Below, piece by piece: positions 7,278 through 22,792 of a DNA stretch of 33,428 nucleotides (its first letter is position 1; every line of letters begins with the position of its first letter). The DNA is taken from contig JAKBMK010000032.1 in NCBI GenBank assembly GCA_021831595.1, positions 1 to 33,428 of the forward strand. Reading direction: 5' to 3'. Source of the stretch: a bacterium (GTDB lineage Bacteria > Patescibacteriota > Minisyncoccia > Phycocordibacterales > UBA9973). Position numbers and translations under genes: made by a program. The notes beneath the pieces were generated by a model that did not search any database, was not told the DNA's origin, and saw only the letters and a program-made list of their open reading frames with translations.

Positions 7278-8711
7278 ATGAACACAAAAATAGATTTAAA
7301 AAATTTAAACATAGAGAAAGCAAATAAACATTTGAAAGATGGTGACTTTACTGTTAGAGAATTAGTCGATGCTTATTTAGAAGTTATAAAAGAGAAAAAT
7401 ACGGACCTTAATGCTTATCTTGAAATTTTTGATAAGGATATAAACTCTCAGGTAGAGATTGCAGAAAAGATGTTTGAAGATGGAACAGCAACGAAAATGA
7501 CTGGGATACCAATTGCTGTTAAGGATAATATTTTGATTGAAGGGCACATCGCAAGTGCTTCTTCTAAGATGCTTGGTAATCACACGGCGGTTTATGATGC
7601 TTTTGTCATAGAAAAGTTAAAGAAAGAAGGATCAATTTTCTTGGGCAGAACAAATATGGACGAATTCGCTATGGGTTCTTCTACTGAAACAAGTGCTTAT
7701 GGAGTAACTCGTAATCCTTATGATAGAACTCGTGTACCGGGAGGATCTTCAGGTGGTTCGGCGGTGGCAGTTGCGGCCGATATGGCGCTAGTATCACTTG
7801 GGACAGAGACTTGTGGTTCTGTTCGTCAGCCATCATCATTTTGTGGGCTTGTAGGTATGAAGCCTACATATGGAGCAATTTCTCGAAGTGGAATTATCGC
7901 TATGGGAAGCTCTCTTGACCAGGTTGGTCCGATGGGGAAGAGTGTATCTGATGTTGAAATTCTTTATAATACTATTTCTGGCAAAGATCCTCTTGATAGT
8001 ACATCGTTAACAGATGAATTTAAATCTAAATTTGACAAGGCACCTTTGAAGAAAAAAATAGGTGTTCCTCGTGACTTTTTAAGTGGGGGAGGAATAAATG
8101 AAGAGGTTCTTAAAAATTTCGAAGAGAGCTGTGAAAAATTAAAAAAAGCTGGATATGAAATAGTAGATGTGACTTCTAAAACAATGCAATATTCTCTAGC
8201 TGTTTACTATATAATTATGCCTGCAGAAGTTTCAAGTAATCTTGCTCGCTATGATGGCATACGCTATGGTTTCAATATTGACGCACCTAATCTTTATGAT
8301 GTTTATGCACAAAGTAAGGGTAAGGGTTTTGGTAAGGAAGTTCGTAGGCGTTTGCTTCTTGGTACGTATATTCTTTCCCATGGTTATTATGACGCTTATT
8401 ACAATAAAGCCTTGAAAGTTCGAGACATGATTGCCAAGGAGTTATTAGATATCTTTTCAGACGTAGATGCTATTATAAGTCCTACTGTTCCATTTACTGC
8501 ATTTCCACTTGGAGACAAGATGGATGACCCGATGGCTATGTATATGTGTGATATATTCTCTGCTCCAGCGAATTTGGCAGGAATACCTGCAATGTCAGTA
8601 CCAGCTGGAATGAGTAAAGAAGGTTTGCCTATGGGGCTACAGATAACTGCCCCATATCTTCGTGAAGACATACTCTTTACTATTGGGAAAGATTTTGAAA
8701 AATTGGTATAA
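7278..8711 (+). CDS. gatA: Asp-tRNA(Asn)/Glu-tRNA(Gln) amidotransferase subunit A
   Basis: Amidase signature PGGSSGGSAVAVAADMALVSLGTETCGSVRQPSSFCGLVGMKPTYG; upstream catalytic Lys in IPIAVKDNI. Confidence 0.96.
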   Translation: MNTKIDLKNLNIEKANKHLKDGDFTVRELVDAYLEVIKEKNTDLNAYLEIFDKDINSQVEIAEKMFEDGTATKMTGIPIAVKDNILIEGHIASASSKMLGNHTAVYDAFVIEKLKKEGSIFLGRTNMDEFAMGSSTETSAYGVTRNPYDRTRVPGGSSGGSAVAVAADMALVSLGTETCGSVRQPSSFCGLVGMKPTYGAISRSGIIAMGSSLDQVGPMGKSVSDVEILYNTISGKDPLDSTSLTDEFKSKFDKAPLKKKIGVPRDFLSGGGINEEVLKNFEESCEKLKKAGYEIVDVTSKTMQYSLAVYYIIMPAEVSSNLARYDGIRYGFNIDAPNLYDVYAQSKGKGFGKEVRRRLLLGTYILSHGYYDAYYNKALKVRDMIAKELLDIFSDVDAIISPTVPFTAFPLGDKMDDPMAMYMCDIFSAPANLAGIPAMSVPAGMSKEGLPMGLQITAPYLREDILFTIGKDFEKLV

Positions 8712-8712
8712 T
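8707..8712 (+). promoter_or_regulatory. -10 box (TATAAT) overlapping the gatA stop codon, driving the structured leader
   Basis: TATAAT followed by N7 and the leader start at 8720; same N7 spacing as TAAAAT at 14201-14206. Confidence 0.6.
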
Positions 8713-8719
8713 ATAACTA

Positions 8720-8788
8720 CTTGTCCCGTAGTAAAATTTTGATTACGAGACATAAAAATAAACATTATTATTAAATTTTACTATCGGG
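8720..8788 (+). promoter_or_regulatory. Repeated structured 5' leader, copy 1 (abuts ATG 8789)
   Basis: 69 nt, ungapped homologue of 14214-14282; 15-bp stem 8725-8739/8773-8788 with a single bulge (T8784). Confidence 0.75.
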
Positions 8789-9400
8789 ATGCAACCAGGC
8801 GTAATACAAACTGTTACTGAAAAACCACTATTTGATCCAACATATTTAAATATAGAATATGTTTTTAATAAAATTTATAATTCTATAGGACCAATATGGG
8901 ATACGATAACTGATCCTCACACCTGGACAATTATCGGTATTATTTCTGTCTGCATTTCTATTTTGAGTCTTTTTATTATAATCTTTTCTCTTGTTCGCTT
9001 AATAGAGATACAAATTTTTGATGCACAAGAAATTGAACACGAGATTAATCATGCCTTGGCTAGGGATAAGGAGACAGATAGGTCTACTAATCCACGCTGG
9101 AAATATATACAAACTCTCATTGAAAGTCCAAATGAATCAGATTGGAGGATTGCTGTATTGGAGGCTGATACTCTTCTAGAAGAGAGTTTGAAAGAGAAAG
9201 ATATCGTAGGTAATAATATGTCAGAATTATTAGAAGAAGCTAAAGCAAATGGGTATCCAAATATACAGGGAGCTTGGGATGCACATCTAATTCGCAACAA
9301 AATTGCTCACGAAGGTGCAGATTTCCCGTTTACTCAAATAGAGGGGAGAAGAGTTATAAAACTATATCAGAATATCTTCGAAGACTTAAAGGTAATTTAA
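8789..9400 (+). CDS. Membrane-anchored HEPN-like protein
   Basis: One strong TM segment (TIIGIISVCISILSLFIIIFSLV); C-terminal HLIRNKIAHEG fits the HEPN RNxxxH motif. Confidence 0.55.
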   Translation: MQPGVIQTVTEKPLFDPTYLNIEYVFNKIYNSIGPIWDTITDPHTWTIIGIISVCISILSLFIIIFSLVRLIEIQIFDAQEIEHEINHALARDKETDRSTNPRWKYIQTLIESPNESDWRIAVLEADTLLEESLKEKDIVGNNMSELLEEAKANGYPNIQGAWDAHLIRNKIAHEGADFPFTQIEGRRVIKLYQNIFEDLKVI

Positions 9401-9411
9401 AATATAACACT

Positions 9412-9439
9412 AAAAAAGAGCAGCAAGCTGCTCTTTTTT
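9412..9439. terminator. Bidirectional hairpin terminator
   Basis: AAAAAAGAGCAGC-AA-GCTGCTCTTTTTT between convergent genes. Confidence 0.85.
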
Positions 9440-9460
9440 GTTTTATGGTTAATTATTGAA

Positions 9461-10786
9461 TCAAAGTAATCTTGCAGCAAGTTCTGCCAGATCTGATCTC
9501 TCTCCTTTAACGAGGGAGACATGACCGTAGGTTTTCTCTCCATTGAACCTGGAAATAAAATGTGTCAGTCCGTTTGAGGATTGGCTCAGATATGGAGAAT
9601 CAATTTGCGTTGGATCTCCAAGTAGAACCATTTTTGTCCCGACTCCAGCTCTGGTCAAGATAGCCTTTACTTCTGCCGCAGTGTCATTTTGAGTCTCATC
9701 CAGAATGAAGAAGGCTTTCGGAATGCTCCTTCCACGTATGAAAGCTAGTGGTTCCAAGGTAACTTTTTTCTCAGTTTCGTAGATTTTTTTGATAAGAGCC
9801 TCGTTTCCGTTAAGGCTTTTGAGGACTAGCATGTTATCAAAGAATCCTTGCATGTATGGTGATATTTTTTCGTTGGCATCACCAGGCAAGAAACCAAGAT
9901 CGTTATCTGTCAGACCAATAACTTTTCTTGTGTAGTAGATTCTGTCATATAATCCTGTCTTAACAAGATAATAAGCAGCAGCCAGTGTTAAAAGTGTTTT
10001 ACCTGTTCCTGCAGGTCCAGCAAGTGTCATAGAAGAGATGTTTGGATCGAGGAGTAGATTCAAAGCAAAAGCTTGCTCTGAGTTTCTAGCTTCTATTCCC
10101 AATGGCCTCATTTCTTTTTTGTTTATTAAATGAAGATTACCTTCTTTGTAGAATGCAAGAGCTGTTGAGCCAGAAGAGTTCGAGTCAACTGTTACTGATT
10201 CATTTTCCTTCAAGTTAAAATCATTTTTATCAAAAGAAGTAAACTTGTCTTTGTATAAAGATGAAATTATTTCTGAAGTAACCTCAATTGTTTTTGAGGG
10301 AGCGTAGAAAGTTTCTGCTTCAGGAACAGCATCAGTAGTATAATCTTCTGCTGTTATTCCTAATGCGCCGGCTTTGATACGTAAGTTTACATCTTTTGAA
10401 ACAAAGATAACATCATTCTTCACCCCTTTGCTTTTGCCGTCATTTAGTAAGCAATAGGCTGCATTAAGGATGCGATGATCCATGGTCTGCTCAGAAAAAA
10501 TTTTTTTAACCTTATTGTGATAAGGCAAAGAAATCACTCTTAGCTTTCCAAGACCTTCTCCGAGGAGGGCTCCGCCATCATGAACTTTGATTTGAGGCAT
10601 ACCCTCAATTGTTCTCAAGGCTTCTCTGGCGTGGTAGCTTATAGAATCTTCTCCTTTTTTATGGGGGTCCAATTCCATAATTACTTCGATGGGGATTGCT
10701 ACATCATTTTCCTTGAAAGAAAACAGACATTTGCTATCATGCAAGATAACATTTGTGTCTAATACAAAAGTCTTAACAGTACCCAT
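9461..10786 (-). CDS. PIN domain plus PhoH family ATPase
   Basis: N-terminal PIN (FVLDTNVILHDS), then AGPAGTGKTLLTLAAAYYLV Walker A and FFILDETQN Walker B. Confidence 0.92.
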   Translation of the reverse strand: MGTVKTFVLDTNVILHDSKCLFSFKENDVAIPIEVIMELDPHKKGEDSISYHAREALRTIEGMPQIKVHDGGALLGEGLGKLRVISLPYHNKVKKIFSEQTMDHRILNAAYCLLNDGKSKGVKNDVIFVSKDVNLRIKAGALGITAEDYTTDAVPEAETFYAPSKTIEVTSEIISSLYKDKFTSFDKNDFNLKENESVTVDSNSSGSTALAFYKEGNLHLINKKEMRPLGIEARNSEQAFALNLLLDPNISSMTLAGPAGTGKTLLTLAAAYYLVKTGLYDRIYYTRKVIGLTDNDLGFLPGDANEKISPYMQGFFDNMLVLKSLNGNEALIKKIYETEKKVTLEPLAFIRGRSIPKAFFILDETQNDTAAEVKAILTRAGVGTKMVLLGDPTQIDSPYLSQSSNGLTHFISRFNGEKTYGHVSLVKGERSDLAELAARLL

Positions 10787-10868
10787 TTTGATTCTTTTAT
10801 TAGTTTATACTAGATCTATATTTAACTTAAAACTACTCCTAAATAAAACAGAAGTCAAATAAGCCTTA

Positions 10869-11354
10869 TTAAGACTTTTTGGGAACGATTTTAACTGTTT
10901 CCATCCCACTCAAATATCCATGAAGAGTTGTACCTGTGATAAGAGACATTGGAAGTTGTATGAAAAGTAAATTAATTATTAGTAGATCTAATGGAAACCA
11001 TATGTAAATAAGTGCTGTAGAAAAACTTATTGTATAAAAAATATTGAACATAAGATGTTGTCTGAAAGTATAATGCTTTTTCCAATATGTATCCATTACT
11101 TTCATACCAAAACACCGATCTTTTTGAAAGATAAATATGAATGATTCATATAATCCAAACAACACTATTACAGATATCCTCCAATATATTGTAGGCCCTA
11201 GTATTATCAGGAAGGGGACAGATAATCCAAATGCTATGATAGCATTCAATACAGAAGCTCCAAGCTTTTCAAGCGGGTTACTAGTTTTTTCTTCATACAG
11301 AACACCACTGAGTTGTGGTAACTGTTCAATATGGAGATTTCTTGTTTTTTTCAT
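10869..11354 (-). CDS. Predicted multi-pass membrane protein (RDD-like)
   Basis: Several hydrophobic helices; start MKKTRNLHIEQ at 11354, as the 5' extension of the ORF runs into tRNA-Asp. Confidence 0.5.
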   Translation of the reverse strand: MKKTRNLHIEQLPQLSGVLYEEKTSNPLEKLGASVLNAIIAFGLSVPFLIILGPTIYWRISVIVLFGLYESFIFIFQKDRCFGMKVMDTYWKKHYTFRQHLMFNIFYTISFSTALIYIWFPLDLLIINLLFIQLPMSLITGTTLHGYLSGMETVKIVPKKS

Positions 11355-11357
11355 TTG

Positions 11358-11431
11358 CGCAGTCGAAGGGACTTGAACCCTCAACCTCCCACGTGACAGG
11401 CGGGTGCTCTAACCAGTTGAGCTACGACTGC
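11358..11431 (-). tRNA. tRNA-Asp(GTC)
   Basis: Acceptor GCAGTCG/CGACTGC, anticodon loop CTGTCAC, T loop TTCAAGT; CCA not encoded. Confidence 0.95.
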
Positions 11432-11482
11432 ATTCGTACAACATTTCAAACATAACATAAAATAGAAAATAATTCTACTCTA

Positions 11483-11559
11483 TGGTGTCGATGGCAGGAG
11501 TTGCACCTGCGACCTGGCGCTTATGAAACGCCCGCTCTTACTAACTGAGCTACATCGAC
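11483..11559 (-). tRNA. tRNA-Met(CAT), elongator type, CCA encoded (a tRNA-Ile2 role cannot be excluded by eye)
   Basis: Acceptor GTCGATG/CATCGAC, anticodon loop TTCATAA, 3' end A-CCA. Confidence 0.88.
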
Positions 11560-11604
11560 ATTTTCAGCCGTGGACATAATTTTAGCCTGTCACCAGCTTA
11601 CTTG

Positions 11605-11675
11605 TTGCGGGACTTGGAATCGAACCAAGGTCTTAAGGTTATGAGCCTTACGAGATACCATTTCTCTATCCCGCT
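11605..11675 (-). tRNA. Initiator tRNA-fMet(CAT)
   Basis: A1-A72 mismatch above a G2-C71 stem (aGCGGGA/TCCCGCa), anticodon loop CTCATAA. Confidence 0.85.
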
Positions 11676-11737
11676 ATTTATATTAGATTAAACCAATATT
11701 TGCTTATAATAACCCGAAATCATAAATTTTGCAATGA

Positions 11738-11766
11738 TTGAAAAACGCCCCAATTTAAGGTATTCT
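11738..11766 (+). promoter_or_regulatory. Sigma70-type promoter for tRNA-Thr(GGT)
   Basis: TTGAAA-N17-TATTCT. Confidence 0.65.
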
Positions 11767-11782
11767 TAGGAGAGTTTATTTA

Positions 11783-11854
11783 GCCTTCATAGCTTAGTGG
11801 CAAAGCACTCCCTTGGTAAGGGAGAGAGCGTGAGTCCGATTCTCACTGAAGGCT
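11783..11854 (+). tRNA. tRNA-Thr(GGT)
   Basis: Acceptor GCCTTCA/TGAAGGC, anticodon stem CTCCC/GGGAG with loop TTGGTAA, T arm GTGAG-TCCGATT-CTCAC. Confidence 0.93.
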
Positions 11855-11859
11855 CAAAA
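11838..11859 (+). repeat. 22-bp direct repeat copy 1 (3' end of tRNA-Thr)
   Basis: GATTCTCACTGAAGGCTCAAAA, exact copy at 11963-11984. Confidence 0.9.
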
Positions 11860-11894
11860 ATACCTGAGTATCTTTGAGTGTGAGAATCGGAAAG

Positions 11895-11940
11895 CTTTTC
11901 GATGTATATGAGAAATTACTATTTCGAATATACCGAAAAG
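11895..11940 (+). ncRNA. Long hairpin (possible structured RNA) between duplicated tRNA-Thr 3' ends
   Basis: CTTTTCG-at-GTATAT-GA-GAAAT-TACT-ATTTC-GA-ATATAC-CGAAAAG: 18 bp, one 2-nt bulge, symmetric GA/GA internal loop. Confidence 0.5.
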
Positions 11941-11962
11941 GTGTACTGCTCCTGTAAGGAGA

Positions 11963-11984
11963 GATTCTCACTGAAGGCTCAAAA
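11963..11984 (+). repeat. 22-bp direct repeat copy 2 (duplicated tRNA-Thr 3' end)
   Basis: GATTCTCACTGAAGGCTCAAAA; start-to-start spacing 125 bp. Confidence 0.9.
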
Positions 11985-12494
11985 TCACATAGAGATTTCT
12001 ATAAAAGTTTTAGAGGTTATTTTTGATATGAGATGTAACATGTCTTCTTTTTTGATAGCAAGACATCCTTTTGTATATTCCATATTTTCCTTCATTATAT
12101 GAATAAAAATTGCGCTACCCTCATTTTTTATTACAGGTGAATCATTATATCCAATAATTAAAACTATATCGTACATATTATCTTCTCTCCATAAATTTTC
12201 ATAACTCCCATTGAATGGTAGTTTAATAAATGTGTTGTATTCATTTCTTGATGGGTCGTCACACCATGCATTGTCTTTTGACAATGGGGTACATTTTATC
12301 TGGGTCTCAGGTTTCTTTATTTTATCCTCTCTATAATATATTTCTCTTATAGGGAAAGTCCCCATTGGTGTTTTCCAATCTCCCTCTTTTTTGTTGTCTG
12401 TTATCCCGTCTCTTCCAAAAACACAAAAAAAAGAGCACTTATCATCCAATGATAGTAATCTCTTTTTATAACTGGCTTTCATTATATCAAACAT
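11985..12494 (-). CDS. L,D-transpeptidase/YkuD-like protein
   Basis: GDWKTPMGTFPI and IFIHIMKENMEYTKGCLAIKKEDM resemble the YkuD H-x-G-C region. Confidence 0.7.
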   Translation of the reverse strand: MFDIMKASYKKRLLSLDDKCSFFCVFGRDGITDNKKEGDWKTPMGTFPIREIYYREDKIKKPETQIKCTPLSKDNAWCDDPSRNEYNTFIKLPFNGSYENLWREDNMYDIVLIIGYNDSPVIKNEGSAIFIHIMKENMEYTKGCLAIKKEDMLHLISKITSKTFIEISM

Positions 12495-12498
12495 ATTT

Positions 12499-12954
12499 TT
12501 ATTCTACTTTATCAAGAGAAGAATGCCAATACATATCTAAAACTGGAGCCTTTTTCTTAATTCCATCCTTATCGAGTCCGGAATAATGTAGTGGATGTTC
12601 ACCTGGCATTCCAAGTGAACTACGGTTAGAAACAGCTTGTTGTTCTCCGATATAAACTCCTAGGTGTTTGTGATCTGCTCCGTTTTGGTGTACAGAACCC
12701 CAAACAATAATACATCCTACCTTTAAAGTTTTTATCTTAAACCAACCATTGTTTTCCATTGCGTATAATGTCCCGGGGACAGTAAAGTGTACTCTATCTA
12801 TCAATCCATGCAAAAGCAAAATAGAAGAAATATAATAGGCACAACTCAAGTCACCATTTTTTAGAACATCATTACCTTCTTGATCAAAGTAACTTCTAAA
12901 GAGCTGAGATCCCGTTGAGTTTTTTACACTCAATAATAAATTTTTTAGTTTCAT
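12499..12954 (-). CDS. NlpC/P60-like cysteine peptidase-fold protein
   Basis: GDLSCAYYISSILLLHGLI, VGCIIVWGS and HKHLGVYIGEQQAVSN resemble the Cys/His layout of NlpC/P60. Confidence 0.5.
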   Translation of the reverse strand: MKLKNLLLSVKNSTGSQLFRSYFDQEGNDVLKNGDLSCAYYISSILLLHGLIDRVHFTVPGTLYAMENNGWFKIKTLKVGCIIVWGSVHQNGADHKHLGVYIGEQQAVSNRSSLGMPGEHPLHYSGLDKDGIKKKAPVLDMYWHSSLDKVE

Positions 12955-13062
12955 CTTCTAAAATTTAATTTCTCAAAATTTACCATTTTGTAGAGTTTGT
13001 GTCAAAATGGGGGAAGGGTGTATATTGTATAGGTTAGTTTTACGACATTTTGTCCTGTGAGA

Positions 13063-13135
13063 GCCGAAGTAGCTCAGTTGGTAGAGCAATGGTATCGTAA
13101 ACCGTAGGTCGCCAGTTCGATCCTGGCCTTCGGCT
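13063..13135 (+). tRNA. tRNA-Thr(CGT)
   Basis: Acceptor GCCGAAG/CTTCGGC, anticodon loop ATCGTAA, T loop TTCGATC. Confidence 0.95.
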
Positions 13136-13170
13136 CTGACGGGGGAAGATAATTATTATAAAAATATTTT

Positions 13171-14208
13171 ATGTATAGTAACAAAAATAACGGTAAAAAA
13201 GTTTTTGAAGGTGATAGTGCAATAAAAGATTTCCTAACCCCTGGATCACTCGGTGTGACCCCTCTTGTAGAACTTCCAGCTTCAGTTAATAAATTTAAAA
13301 AAGATAAAGTTCGAATTTTCGTAAAACTTATGCAATTCGTGCCACTAGGGAATATCAAGTCTATGCCTTCTTGGCAAATGCTTTCTGGTATGACTAAAGA
13401 TGAACTAAAGCAAACGAAACATCTAGTAGAATATTCTTCCGGTAATACTGTTCTCTCTCTCGCAATTCTATCTCGCCATTTTGGCATACCAAATCTTCAT
13501 GCCATTATTACACCCGATGTTCCCGAGCATAAGAAGCGTTTACTTAAACTTGTTGGGGCTGATTTGATGATTTCTTATGGTCCTCGTAGTCCTGATGTTC
13601 ATAGTAATAAAGGTGGAGTATATGAAGCCAAGCAGCTTGGTAAGAAAAAGGGTTGGCACAACCTCAATCAATATGTAAATCCTGGAAATACTAATGCGTC
13701 TGAAGAGTATGTCGCCAAGGAGCTTTGGAATCAGCTAGGTGACCAAATGACAATTTTTGCTTCGACTATTGGTACTGCAGGTACTATCTATGGCACAGGT
13801 AATTATTTAAAAGAAAAAAATAAAGATATATATATCGCTGGAACCTCTATAAAGAAAGGTTCTTCAATTCCGGGACCTCGAGTAGATGAAGCAATACTCA
13901 AGCTTGGCATTCCTTGGTATGACGTTGTAGACAAAGTTATCCCTATTGATGCAGTATCTGCGTATGAAAGAAGTTTAGCTCTCATACGGTTGGGTCTTTT
14001 TGTGGGTCCTTCGACTGGTATGCAGCTAGCCATGATAGAGAAGTTGATAGGAGAGATGAAGAAGAGCAAAACTTTGAATAAATATAGAAATAAAAATAAG
14101 GAAGTGGTAATCGCTTTTGTGGCTTGTGATATGATGCATCCATATATCGACGATTATTTTTCAATCTTACCTAAAAAATATTTTAAACAAGAGCAAAAGT
14201 TAAAATAG
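13171..14208 (+). CDS. PLP-dependent enzyme, cysteine synthase/threonine synthase-like family
   Basis: GVTPLVELP, GNIKSMPSW (Lys site), EYSSGNTVLSLA, STIGTAGTIYGTGNYLKE, FVGPSTGMQLA. Confidence 0.8.
   Translation: MYSNKNNGKKVFEGDSAIKDFLTPGSLGVTPLVELPASVNKFKKDKVRIFVKLMQFVPLGNIKSMPSWQMLSGMTKDELKQTKHLVEYSSGNTVLSLAILSRHFGIPNLHAIITPDVPEHKKRLLKLVGADLMISYGPRSPDVHSNKGGVYEAKQLGKKKGWHNLNQYVNPGNTNASEEYVAKELWNQLGDQMTIFASTIGTAGTIYGTGNYLKEKNKDIYIAGTSIKKGSSIPGPRVDEAILKLGIPWYDVVDKVIPIDAVSAYERSLALIRLGLFVGPSTGMQLAMIEKLIGEMKKSKTLNKYRNKNKEVVIAFVACDMMHPYIDDYFSILPKKYFKQEQKLK
14201..14206 (+). promoter_or_regulatory. -10 box (TAAAAT) upstream of the prfB leader
   Basis: N7 spacing to the leader start, identical to copy 1. 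Confidence 0.5.
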
Positions 14209-14213
14209 AAATA

Positions 14214-14282
14214 CTTGTCCCGTACTAAATTTTTGATTACGGGATATAGAGATAAACATTATTATTAAAATTTAGTACCGGG
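14214..14282 (+). promoter_or_regulatory. Repeated structured 5' leader, copy 2 (abuts prfB ATG 14283)
   Basis: 69 nt homologous to 8720-8788, same length, compensatory changes in the stem. Confidence 0.75.
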
Positions 14283-15170
14283 ATGGATAAAGATAAAGAA
14301 GAAATTAGAAAAGAGATAGAACAACTTGAAAATGAAATGCTTCAAGGTAATTTCTGGGAAGACAAAGTGAGAGCTCAGGGTATCATAAAGAGAATAGGGG
14401 AACTCAAGGACGAACTACTAGGAGCAGAGAAATATGACAAAGGTGGTGCTATTCTCTCAATTCTTTCAGGGGCAGGAGGAGACGACGCAGAAGATTTTTC
14501 TTCAATGTTACTTCGTATGTATATGAAATTTATAGAAAGAAAAGGTTGGCAGGCAACTTTGATTCACGAAAATAAGAATGATGTAGGGGGATATAGGAAT
14601 ATATCTATAGAAATTTCTGGTAAAAGTGCCTATGGAACACTCAAGAATGAATCGGGTGTTCATCGTCTTGTTCGTATCTCGCCATTTAATGCGAATGCCA
14701 AGCGTCATACCTCTTTTTCTTTGGTAGAAGTAATTCCAAAGTTAGAAAAAAATGACAAGGTGATAGAAATTCCACCGGAAGATTTGCGAATTGAATTTTC
14801 AAAAGCAGGTGGCCCTGGTGGACAGAATGTGAACAAAAGAGAGACGGCTGTTAGGCTTATACACATACCTACGAATATCTCTGTCCATGTCACTTCAGAG
14901 CGTTCTCAAGAACAAAACCGTGAGAAGGCCCTAGAAATGCTTAAGGGCAAGCTTTATAAGAAGAGAGAAGAAGATAAACTCAAAGAAAAGGCTGGATTAT
15001 CTCCTACAAAGACTACAGAGATAGAATGGGGTAGTCAGATTCGTTCATATGTCCTTCATCCTTACAAAATGATCAAGGATCATAGGACAGGGGTAGAAGT
15101 AAATAATGTTGACGCCGTGCTTGAAAGTGGCATGATAGACGAATTTATTGAAGCAGAACGGGAATTGTGA
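14283..15170 (+). CDS. prfB: Peptide chain release factor 2
   Basis: GGPGGQNVNKRETAVRL (GGQ), RISPFNANAKRHTSF (SPF region); short N-terminus, no frameshift needed; ends in TGA. Confidence 0.93.
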   Translation: MDKDKEEIRKEIEQLENEMLQGNFWEDKVRAQGIIKRIGELKDELLGAEKYDKGGAILSILSGAGGDDAEDFSSMLLRMYMKFIERKGWQATLIHENKNDVGGYRNISIEISGKSAYGTLKNESGVHRLVRISPFNANAKRHTSFSLVEVIPKLEKNDKVIEIPPEDLRIEFSKAGGPGGQNVNKRETAVRLIHIPTNISVHVTSERSQEQNREKALEMLKGKLYKKREEDKLKEKAGLSPTKTTEIEWGSQIRSYVLHPYKMIKDHRTGVEVNNVDAVLESGMIDEFIEAEREL

Positions 15171-16797: not shown

Positions 16798-18489
16798 ATG
16801 AAAGATTCTCTCGAGAAAAAGCTAGAAAATAAATTATCTAACTGTAAGTATATCTTTGTAGTCGGTGGAGTCATCTCAGGAGTTGGAAAGGGTATTACAG
16901 CCTCATCTATTGCTCGTATACTCTCAGACAGAGGGCAGACTGTCACAGCTATAAAAATAGATCCATATATAAATATAGATGCTGGGACTATGAATCCTAC
17001 AGAACACGGCGAAGTCTTTGTGCTCGATGATGGAGACGAGACAGACCAAGATATGGGTAATTATGAACGCTTCTTGGGGGTCAACTTGTCTCGCACGAAT
17101 TATATGACAACAGGACGCGTCTATCAGAGCGTTATCGAGAGTGAAAGAAATTTAGAATATCAAGGGAAGTGTGTAGAGGTTGTGCCTCATATCCCTCTCG
17201 AAGTTATTCGCCGTATTGAGCTTGCCAGAGACAATGCAAATGCGGATGTCGTCATAATTGAAATAGGAGGAACTGTTGGTGAATACCAGAATATGCTTTT
17301 CCTTGAAGCTGCTCGTATGATGAAGATTAAGCATCACAAGGAAGTATTTTTCGTAATGGTTTCTTATCTACCAATACCATCAAAAGTGGGGGAGATGAAG
17401 ACCAAGCCTACTCAGTATGCTGTCAGAACACTCAATGCTTCAGGAATTCAACCGGATATAATTGTAGCTAGAAGTAAAATGCCTCTCGATGAGAAGAGAA
17501 AAGAGAAGATTTCTATGTTCTGTAATGTTCCCGTTGATCATATTATCTCGGCACCAGATGTAGATAGTATCTACGATATACCAGTTAATTTCGAGAAGGA
17601 GGGACTAGGAGATATGATTTGTGATACCGTTGGCATGACTTGTGGTCCAGCTGTAAATGAAGGTTCTACAAAATGGAAAAAGTTTGCCAATTCTACACAC
17701 ACAAAAAACAATGAGTTGAAAATTGCTATTGTTGGTAAGTATTTCAATACAGGAGACTTTACACTTTCTGATTCGTATCTTTCTGTTATTGAAGCTATAA
17801 AGTATTCATCTTATACGTCTGGTAGCAAGCCAGTTCTTACTTGGATTTCATCAATGGATTTTGAAAAGGACCCAAAAAGAATAAAAGAACTTTCAAAATA
17901 TGATGGCATAATTGTTCCAGGAGGATTTGGTTCACGTGGGATAGAAGGAATTTTGAAGACTATCGAGTATGCTCGTACTCATGATATTCCTTATTTTGGT
18001 CTCTGTTATGGAATGCAGCTTTTGGTAATAGAGTATGCTAGGAATGTTTTGAAGCTTAAAGATGCAAATACAAGAGAAGTGAATCCGAACGCCAAAGATA
18101 TTGTCATTGATGTTATGGAAGATCAGAAGGCTAAAATAGAAAATAAAAAGATGGGAGGAAGTATGCGTCTAGGTGCATATCCTGCTATGTTAAAGAAGGG
18201 GACAGTCGCAGAAAAGGCTTACAAGACAGATTCGATAGTCGAACGTCATAGACACCGCTACGAAGTGAATAATGCTTATAGAGAGGCTCTAGAGAAGGCT
18301 GGGCTCATATTCTCGGGCGTATCTCCAGATGGTAAGCTTTGTGAGATTGCCGAATTGCCAGCTGGCAAGCATCCGTTCTTCCTGGGGACACAATTCCATC
18401 CAGAATTCAAAGCAAGACCTTTATCTCCTCATCCTTTGTTTACAGCTTTTGTAAAAGCTTGCCAGAAGAAATTAGGTTCTAGAAAATAG
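16798..18489 (+). CDS. pyrG: CTP synthase
   Basis: KYIFVVGGVISGVGKGITASSIARIL, GTMNPTEHGEVFVLDDGDETDQDMGNYERF, GATase PYFGLCYGMQL. Confidence 0.98.
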   Translation: MKDSLEKKLENKLSNCKYIFVVGGVISGVGKGITASSIARILSDRGQTVTAIKIDPYINIDAGTMNPTEHGEVFVLDDGDETDQDMGNYERFLGVNLSRTNYMTTGRVYQSVIESERNLEYQGKCVEVVPHIPLEVIRRIELARDNANADVVIIEIGGTVGEYQNMLFLEAARMMKIKHHKEVFFVMVSYLPIPSKVGEMKTKPTQYAVRTLNASGIQPDIIVARSKMPLDEKRKEKISMFCNVPVDHIISAPDVDSIYDIPVNFEKEGLGDMICDTVGMTCGPAVNEGSTKWKKFANSTHTKNNELKIAIVGKYFNTGDFTLSDSYLSVIEAIKYSSYTSGSKPVLTWISSMDFEKDPKRIKELSKYDGIIVPGGFGSRGIEGILKTIEYARTHDIPYFGLCYGMQLLVIEYARNVLKLKDANTREVNPNAKDIVIDVMEDQKAKIENKKMGGSMRLGAYPAMLKKGTVAEKAYKTDSIVERHRHRYEVNNAYREALEKAGLIFSGVSPDGKLCEIAELPAGKHPFFLGTQFHPEFKARPLSPHPLFTAFVKACQKKLGSRK

Positions 18490-18518
18490 TTTGTAGTGAC
18501 TAGTAAAAATTAATATAT

Positions 18519-18549
18519 AAAAATGCGTTGGCGAAGCCAACGCATTTTT
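18519..18549. terminator. Bidirectional terminator
   Basis: AAAAATGCGTTGGC-GAA-GCCAACGCATTTTT between convergent genes. Confidence 0.85.
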
Positions 18550-18578
18550 ACTAGAACCTAATCACTAACTACTAGTCA

Positions 18579-19304
18579 CTAATTCAATTCATCATCTCCA
18601 GTTCTCATTTTACTTATTCTTACGACTTCTACTATTTCATCCATGTCGTCTGTGACTATGAATCTGTCCAAGTCAGACTTAGAAATTGTTTTATACTTCT
18701 CTACGAATTGTTCTTCGAGTAACTTTTTAATAGGAGTCCAAAATTCTGTTCCGTATAATATTACTGGTATTGAACCTATTTTACCCGTTTGTAAATGAGT
18801 TAGTATTTCAAAGAATTCATACATTGTGCCTGTACCTCCAGCACAGAAAATACAAGCTTCATTTGTATAATGCATTGATACTTGTCTAGCAAAGAAGAAA
18901 TGAAAAGGAACTTCTTTTGTTACATATGGATTGGTTGCTTGTTCATGGGGAAGCTTTATTGTAAAACCGACAGATTCAACTCCAGCATCATGGGCACCCT
19001 TGTTGGCGGCTTCCATTATTCCAGCTCCTCCACCTGAGATTATTATGTACCCCAATTCTTTCGCAATTTTATTTGCAAGATTATAGGCTCTTATATAATC
19101 TGGATGATCCTTTGGTAGTCTTGCAGAACCATAGAAAGTCACAGAAGGAGGTAAATTCTTAACAAAATCAATTCCTTCACGGAATTCTTCTTGGATCATG
19201 CAGAGCTTTGTCTCTTCTCCGTCTCCGCCTGTCAAAGTCATACAACCATTCTTAATGTCATCTGCCGTTATGTGTCTCGGCTCATATTTTATTTCTGTAG
19301 TCAT
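18579..19304 (-). CDS. LOG family protein (lysine decarboxylase-like Rossmann fold)
   Basis: GGGAGIMEAANKGA and GGTGTMYEFFEIL motifs. Confidence 0.88.
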   Translation of the reverse strand: MTTEIKYEPRHITADDIKNGCMTLTGGDGEETKLCMIQEEFREGIDFVKNLPPSVTFYGSARLPKDHPDYIRAYNLANKIAKELGYIIISGGGAGIMEAANKGAHDAGVESVGFTIKLPHEQATNPYVTKEVPFHFFFARQVSMHYTNEACIFCAGGTGTMYEFFEILTHLQTGKIGSIPVILYGTEFWTPIKKLLEEQFVEKYKTISKSDLDRFIVTDDMDEIVEVVRISKMRTGDDELN

Positions 19305-21534: not shown

Positions 21535-21619
21535 GGTAAAACCTTGCCTTATAAATATTCAGGCTCAGCCTTTATTTTTAAGTTAGGGTTTTTAAGTCAT
21601 AGTTTGATATAATAAAACC

Positions 21620-22646: not shown

Positions 22647-22792
22647 GTTTTTAAATTAAACAAAATGATTTTCATTAAGAACTTAACACAAAAGACATAA
22701 TTTGTCTATGTTATAGACTAAGATTAAGTGCATACCTAAGTTTTTTTGTTTGGGCTAGGGTTTTTGATTATTGTTTTGGTATAATAAGGTGT

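Follow-up and report, generated by a model that had tools for sequence, protein, structure and literature searches.

Two copies of a 70-nt structured element stand directly before start codons in the window (the whole stretch of DNA analysed, 33,428 nt). Comparison of these copies with their relatives revealed a start-codon stem, a bias towards a second 5' hairpin, a position between the predicted +1 and the ATG, exactly bounded filled and empty sites, and many unrelated target genes. With a little more confidence than doubt, we read the element as a mobile leader cassette through which a leaderless gene becomes gated at its start codon. What is said below of switching, of the fold that is ON, of a trigger and of a mobilising enzyme we infer. 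The databases and papers searched contain no description of a start-codon-clamping leader that spreads by itself.

The two copies and their family

The features of the window discussed below are the following, all on the forward strand.

8707-8712, + strand: -10 hexamer TATAAT of copy 1 (sequence), first base at -12 from A8719
8719-8788, + strand: element copy 1, constituting the complete predicted 5' UTR, from the A of ACTTGTCCCG to GGG (R1, 76.5 bits; family of 205 copies)
8722-8752, + strand: alternative 5' hairpin, copy 1 (8722-8725 with 8749-8752, 8727-8732 with 8742-8747; -8.7 kcal/mol, z -3.3)
8723-8739, + strand: start-codon stem, 5' arm, copy 1, pairing with 8773-8790, C8785 bulged (fold and covariation)
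8773-8790, + strand: start-codon stem, 3' arm, copy 1, including GGG 8786-8788 and the A and U of the start codon (fold)
8789-9400, + strand: gene 1, a 203-aa membrane protein
14201-14206, + strand: -10 hexamer TAAAAT of copy 2 (sequence and -10 spacing)
14213-14282, + strand: element copy 2, the whole predicted prfB 5' UTR (R1, 78.9 bits)
14216-14246, + strand: alternative 5' hairpin, copy 2 (14216-14224 with 14238-14246; -11.0 kcal/mol, 0 of 200 shuffles as stable)
14217-14234, + strand: start-codon stem, 5' arm, copy 2, pairing with 14266-14284, C14279 bulged (fold -19.2 kcal/mol; covariation)
14266-14284, + strand: start-codon stem, 3' arm, copy 2, extending into the AUG (fold)
14283-15170, + strand: prfB, release factor 2 (GGQ motif, 295 aa)

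An earlier note on this DNA had described two gapless copies, and both the alignment (85 nt including the -10 box, 86% identity) and the covariance-model scores (76.5 bits at 8719-8791, 78.9 bits at 14213-14285) confirm them. Beyond weak antisense images of both copies, the rest of the window held no comparable match to the model. The training set of the model consisted in part of these two copies; the relatives lead to the same answer. The MFE z-score was about -3.1 for each copy. The -10 boxes at 8707 and 14201, the direct contact with the ATG and the absence of a Shine-Dalgarno sequence stood as described, except that the element begins one base earlier than had been stated, at A8719 and A14213. 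The copy-1 hexamer overlaps the stop codon of gatA, which ends at 8711, and the copy-2 hexamer is located at the end of a PALP-family gene.

Family members are about 70-110 nt long. Nearly all copies (202 of 205) share the initial A. The -10 hexamer peaks with its first base at -12 from this A (203 elements), which is where both hexamers of the window lie. Of 147 genomes of the family, 79 contained the element, as did 65 of 397 genomes sampled over the order (Candidatus Nomurabacteria and relatives, Patescibacteria); the hosts are very small bacteria that have not been cultured. The first genus search with the covariance model scored 150 candidates per genome, and the copy numbers from that search are therefore minimum values.

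The window had no Rfam match at the gathering threshold (4227 models), and in the loci of ten relatives nothing was found at the element with E up to 10. The covariation described below and the lack of an Rfam match bear out the proposal of a new structured-RNA family that reaches from the mRNA 5' end to the start codon. For the 'LOOT' motif (Latescibacteria, OD1, OP3, TM7), considered as a possible direct match, the Rfam scan gave none. A CsrA site was considered and set aside: the element end GUACUGGGAUG resembles the CsrA consensus, but the triplet varies freely. Viral spread was rejected as well, the sole IMG/VR match being a chance match within a polymerase gene.

Start-codon stem and alternative 5' hairpin

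Across the 205 distinct copies, pairing joins the 5' arm, located at the predicted mRNA start, to the bases preceding the AUG plus its A and U. For the GGG of copy 1 the predicted unpaired probability is 0.0004. All eight inner pairs were intact in 188 of 205 copies, compared with 63 (maximum 80) in reshuffled controls for which the best register was refitted. Among 91 aligned copies the covariation score was 0.205 versus 0.063; none of 500 shuffles reached it, and it was at most 0.042 when the arms were slid. One pair of the stem alone occurs as CG (46), AU (18), GC (11) and UA (10). The two compensatory pairs seen between the copies of the window are genuine; many further pair types occur in the wider family. 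With the first pair excluded, the inner stem contained 34 G.U but only 3 A.C. This indicates selection on the fold of the sense strand. In one variant (L207, L239) the start codon lies within the loop. At the level of sequence comparison, a conserved secondary structure backed by compensatory change is well supported.

The earlier note had described the stem and overlooked a second, exclusive 5' hairpin (8722-8752 and 14216-14246). In the computed folds the two structures are mutually exclusive. In two large classes the 5' hairpin exceeds its shuffles in stability (mean z -2.4 and -2.2; 110 of the 145 copies rank in the best tenth), and its partner base tracks the variable triplet (88 of 120 paired versus 55 expected). 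It is absent in the gacc subfamily (21 copies) and weak in long copies. Judged by these statistics, the 5' hairpin is also under selection. Outside the gacc subfamily, and weakly in long copies, computation gives the pattern typical of riboswitches, namely exclusive folds of which one occludes the initiation region. In the full-length RNA the closed fold is predicted to be favoured by a median of 7.9 kcal/mol. Thus switching must be kinetic, assisted, or nonexistent.

Sites, target genes and translation start

Of 49 relatives whose rpmB site was read, 47 had it empty behind the same promoter. The filled site in G001 runs from ...gatagcatagcttcacat through the element (ACTTG..GGG) into ATGGCG, and in the empty site of G009 ...gatagcatagcttcatct is joined directly to ATGGCG. 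At ftsA, filled and empty sites are interleaved on the tree, and old copies have retained the stem over 13 genomes. No target-site duplication was found at rpmB or ftsA; the filled flanks join to the empty site, with no more than a single base left ambiguous. That the element enters or leaves exactly between promoter and ATG is, as far as aligned loci can tell, well supported. Similar copies of one subfamily also occur at unrelated genes in different genomes, and three genomes carry three different element classes at rplM. The elements are short and non-coding, have terminal inverted repeats and exist in many dispersed copies, as is characteristic of MITEs. The earlier note had expected a MITE-like repeat to lack conserved-stem homologues tied to start codons. 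Such homologues are abundant, which speaks against a plain MITE; yet the element is gained and lost as a discrete unit, as mobile DNA is.

For 59 copies in four genomes the 5' end was the sole search criterion; 55 of them adjoined a start codon, in gene orientation. The downstream genes are housekeeping genes of all kinds from at least 143 families, and a release-factor regulon is thus rejected. The gene behind copy 2 was rightly identified as prfB, but the proposed small regulon around it fails: prfB carries the element at 1 of 22 genus loci, in this genome only, and its start codon is conserved in relatives that lack the element. Gene 1 had been called HEPN-like. Its product had no Pfam match and no NCBIfam match over the cut-off, and this assignment was not upheld. 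A homologue of gene 1 elsewhere (L327) is also preceded by the element.

The 16S anti-Shine-Dalgarno sequence was absent in this genome and in 14 relatives of the order (readable 16S tails). The extended -10 lies at -12 from the element's A, and ordinary genes have the same spacing between -10 and ATG; this spacing suggests that ordinary host genes are leaderless. The leader motif AUUAUU was present in 114 of 205 copies, compared with 27 in shuffles. Pairing with the altered 16S tail AAUAAU would be a new SD-like contact, for which the motif is suggestive in this family. A uORF as universal opener was rejected; it is present in the gacc subfamily only.

Interpretation and known systems

The favoured interpretation is that cassette DNA separates promoter and ATG, with exact junctions, in genes that are otherwise leaderless, whereby the element's first base (the A of ACYUGUCCCG) would become the mRNA 5' end. 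In one fold the 5' arm GUCCCGUxxxAAA would close the start codon by pairing with the segment whose 3' end is GGG-AU(G). In the other, an ACGGGAC-like segment further downstream would sequester the 5' arm in the 5' hairpin, so that the AU-rich stretch and the AUG stay open. As the two folds are exclusive and one of them closes the start codon, translation could be gated there, via folding order or a trans factor, in a lineage without Shine-Dalgarno pairing. A broader claim, to which we give slightly less than an even chance, is that a mobile element with a regulatory 5' leader as payload inserts at the transcription start and start codon of leaderless genes and places them under a common gate, so that a genome-wide expression network arose by transposition where Shine-Dalgarno recognition was lost.

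The exact filled and empty sites without target duplication, and the similar subfamily copies at unrelated genes across genomes, would also be expected of a selfish miniature transposable element. Its hairpin would serve transposition alone, e. g. with the sense strand as single-stranded DNA in a mechanism like that of IS200/IS605 or in another HUH system, perhaps into open promoter bubbles at +1, and the RNA fold would be a tolerated by-product without regulation. Y1 transposases are abundant in these genomes (34 of 46), and two copies in G151 precede a non-start ATG beside a -10 box. However, nearly all located copies adjoin start codons in gene orientation, the old ftsA copies keep their stem, and an end-to-end palindrome needs neither the 5' hairpin nor its covariation. 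In addition, no Y1 transposase was detected in the copy-rich G147 and G151, around 30 Y1 genes no element with matching ends was found, and the palindromes preceding Y1 genes differ in look. We regard this explanation as rather unlikely. It is improbable that the leader is simply removed by an endonuclease (RNase III-like or other) cutting at or near GGG^AUG to give the leaderless mRNA preferred by the ribosomes of the lineage. The apparent leaderlessness of ordinary genes and the end of the element exactly at the AUG fit such a cut, and Correia/NEMIS leader hairpins are cut by RNase III (PMC10969869, PMC2229807), but the stem has about 16 bp and the alternative 5' hairpin would be left without a role.

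Exclusive folds and occlusion of the start codon are typical of translational switches, and hence an ordinary riboswitch, thermosensor or protein-binding leader with a small regulon including prfB was considered. Its gene set lacks the coherence expected of a ligand-driven riboswitch; the unrelated genes, the rarity of the element at prfB and its repeated gain or loss as a unit speak against it. The small-regulon switch is largely refuted by gene content, and we hold it to be very improbable. The hosts are mostly metagenome-assembled genomes, which might point to a chance repeat or an assembly artefact. This deserves next to no credence, with hundreds of copies in many independent assemblies and no match of a reversed-pattern control in the 147 genomes, 79 of which carry copies.

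Patescibacteria are an immense share of bacterial life and experimentally almost closed. The mobile cassette offers a concrete, testable picture of translation start in one large lineage, with no anti-Shine-Dalgarno, apparent leaderlessness and a spreading clamp leader. If true, it would be a rare case in which an RNA switch, inserted precisely at +1, carries regulation from gene to gene. Filled and empty gene pairs in many species constitute a natural experiment on the effect of a leader without Shine-Dalgarno.

Correia/NEMIS elements (CREE, Neisseria) and other bacterial MITEs (RUP, ERIC, RPE) are non-coding, measure about 70-160 bp, are dispersed as repeats and have terminal inverted repeats as well as filled and empty sites; transcribed within mRNA leaders, they form hairpins and can change expression (PMC2229807, PMC2649163, PMC10969869). 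The present element shares their small size, dispersal, inverted repeats and filled and empty sites. Whereas they mostly duplicate a TA target and lie within as well as between genes, it inserts without duplication between promoter and ATG in gene orientation; unlike theirs, its arms covary as RNA and compete with a 5' hairpin. IS200/IS605-type elements, their non-autonomous palindromic derivatives and REP/RAYT likewise show no target duplication, precise excision and hairpin-dependent ends. They have one hairpin per end, in contrast to the single end-to-end stem found here. With translational riboswitches, RNA thermometers and ribosomal-protein leaders the element shares a 5' leader position, mutually exclusive folds and the concealment of the initiation region in one of them, but it differs from them in having no Rfam match, an incoherent gene set and a cassette-like spread. 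The anti-Shine-Dalgarno is missing in some Bacteroidetes, mycoplasmas and Carsonella (PMC6107228), a text in which Patescibacteria are unmentioned. The hosts resemble those organisms in a 16S 3' tail without CCUCC and in genes without Shine-Dalgarno, and add to this apparent leaderless transcription and inserts of a structured leader.

Occurrence of the element and its promoter context

The two element copies described in the earlier note are present in the sequence and in the alignment. Their start, however, had been placed one base late; the first base of the family is the A at 8719 and 14213, respectively. With two further repeats of the window, the features are:

8719-8788, + strand: element copy 1
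14213-14282, + strand: element copy 2, before prfB (release factor 2)
18470-18510 and 18544-18584: inverted repeat (41 nt, 71%) directly after pyrG and flanked by convergent genes; probably a structure of the terminator type
21564-21615 and 22736-22787: repeated upstream sequence (52 nt, 71%) before two genes, ending in TATAATAA; possible shared promoter

The window stems from the 807-kb genome of a patescibacterium (G000). BLASTN against 100 relatives found more copies within the genus, and a covariance model (R1) built from a seed alignment of 17 copies (A2) placed elements in at least 16 of 24 genomes of the genus, a lower bound with 150 candidates scored per genome. A pattern of the 5' end only, CYTGTCCCGTNNNAAA, matched 79 of the 147 genomes of the family (at most 20 matches each), and the reversed control pattern matched none of them. 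Order-wide it matched 65 of 397 genomes, thus copies beyond the family are real but sparser. The named carriers are nearly all Candidatus Nomurabacteria, joined by Zambryskibacteria, Parcubacteria and 'Paceibacterota'. No Rfam family matches the element. Genomes scored as copy-free may harbour variants like the diverged copy at ftsA of genome G111 (locus L415; TGTCCTGT...ACAGAAATG), which the exact pattern did not catch. At locus L179 (G143:C9) a 5' arm is fused straight into coding sequence resembling rpsP, which probably reflects a misjoined repeat or else a small deletion.

At ordinary genes the extended -10 box TGnTANNNT peaks sharply with its first base at -12 from the A of the ATG (58 of 636 in the relatives, against a background of one or two). 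This peak recurs at element genes, there at -12 counted from the A that opens the element. Given the usual distance from -10 to +1, ordinary mRNAs would begin at the AUG and element mRNAs at base 1 of the element. Genes of the window, too, have extended -10 boxes 12 nt ahead of the ATG. Judging from sequence, leaderless mRNAs seem to be the rule in this lineage. Shine-Dalgarno motifs are rare in these genomes, and every readable 16S 3' tail (G000:C16, locus L385, and 14 relatives from the order; L386-L402) reads GUGGAAUAAUUCAA or variants such as GUGGAUUAAUUCAA, without the anti-Shine-Dalgarno CCUCC. Papers cataloguing this loss do not mention the group, and a literature text search of partial coverage, which does not prove novelty, returned no report of anti-Shine-Dalgarno loss or leaderless genes here. 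We regard the leaderless context with anti-Shine-Dalgarno loss as likely.

Two predicted folds of the leader

The structure was analyzed in 205 distinct copies from all loci, each of which has both its ends as well as an open frame (consensus 5'-A-CYUGUCCCGU-xxx-AAAWU...AWUUU-xxx-AC(Y)GGG-AUG). Though freely variable, the triplet xxx is complementary between the arms in 192 copies. All eight inner pairs are formed in 188, compared with 63 expected when 3' halves were redealt among the copies and the register was refitted, and 91 aligned copies gave a covariation score of 0.205, where shuffled controls reached 0.063 and slid ones no more than 0.042. The invariance of CCCG is no proof, since the copies are related and many were found by a 5' pattern, in which the triplet was left free. 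G.U greatly outnumbers A.C in the stem (34 versus 3), which argues against a double-stranded palindrome and points to the fold of the sense strand, as RNA or single-stranded DNA, as the selected one. That the RNA fold and the family are real is near certain.

A second hairpin, GUCCCGU...ACGGGAC, draws on the same 5' arm as the start-codon stem. Within the two main short classes, 110 of 145 copies have a hairpin whose stability ranks in the top tenth against shuffled sequences. The partner base in this hairpin tracks the triplet, with 88 of 120 paired where 55 were expected; the hairpin is missing from one subfamily. Full-length RNAs are predicted to be closed (median probability of GGG being unpaired 0.001), with the best open fold 7.9 kcal/mol less stable; this open fold includes the 5' hairpin in 107 of 166 short copies. 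As to function, we lean slightly towards a start-codon gate with two folds.

In the gacc subfamily (e.g. loci L154, L162, L206), 16 of 20 copies contain an 11-codon uORF starting with ATG or GTG, whose stop UAG sits inside the 3' arm, 7 nt upstream of the start codon; here the stem could open through termination-reinitiation. Loci L207 and L239 show a variant with the start codon inside the loop and with a 3' arm (GTACTGGGATT and GTGTTGGGATT) that belongs to the coding sequence.

Filled and empty sites

The rpmB gene has the same promoter across the family. Its site is empty, i.e. without the element, in 28 of the 29 family genomes that were read, and likewise in 19 of the 20 from this genus. 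In the filled genomes G143 and G001 the element is the sole difference from the neighbours (filled G143, aatgatagcatacaactcgtt/ACCTG...GGG/ATGAAAAAA; empty G138, aatgatagcatacaaaagtt/ATGAAAAAA). The site is also filled in G147, G151 and at locus L311, and probably in G495 from another family. In the ftsA tree, empty (G134, G039, G161, G050) and filled genomes are interleaved with at least four changes. Because the stop codon of the filled form lies inside the element, the upstream ybeY frame continues into ftsA in the empty genomes, as it does in G055. This pattern fits precise loss; repeated gain is a possible alternative. Three distinct element classes at rplM in three genomes are best explained by independent gains. 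Exact gain and loss of the element as one unit is very probable.

No target duplication was seen at the insertion sites compared. Two copies in G151 precede a non-start ATG adjoining a -10 box, a hint that the target is recognized on DNA as (T)ATG. Y1 (RAYT-like) transposases are common in these genomes; none was detected in two copy-rich genomes searched, and the palindromes upstream of Y1 genes differ from the element. The RAYT-like genes at loci L501-L530 are each single; many of them have a palindrome of their own upstream, after which comes a promoter of the leaderless type. Our guess would be a single-strand transposase working in the open promoter bubble, which would account for placement at +1, for the orientation and for the absent duplication.

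Downstream genes and nearest systems

Downstream of the 205 copies are 143 gene families, 33 of them targeted in more than one genome. They include ribosomal proteins, nusG, secE, ftsA, mur, aminoacyl-tRNA synthetases, atp and pil, with names assigned by eye from protein sequences and tested in part. When all exact 5'-end matches of genomes G143, G136, G169 and G151 were read, 55 of 59 lay directly next to a start codon, in the orientation of the gene. The proposed release factor 2 regulon does not hold: among the 22 prfB loci of the genus, only that of G000 has the element, and the relatives have leaderless-type promoters there (e.g. ttgctataatagatca/ATG).

Correia/NEMIS-like MITEs (PMC2229807, PMC2649163, PMC10969869) are among the systems closest in kind; they are defined by target duplication and random placement, neither of which the element shows. 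Translational riboswitches are equally among them, yet these are defined by a coherent gene set, and the genes behind the element are not coherent.
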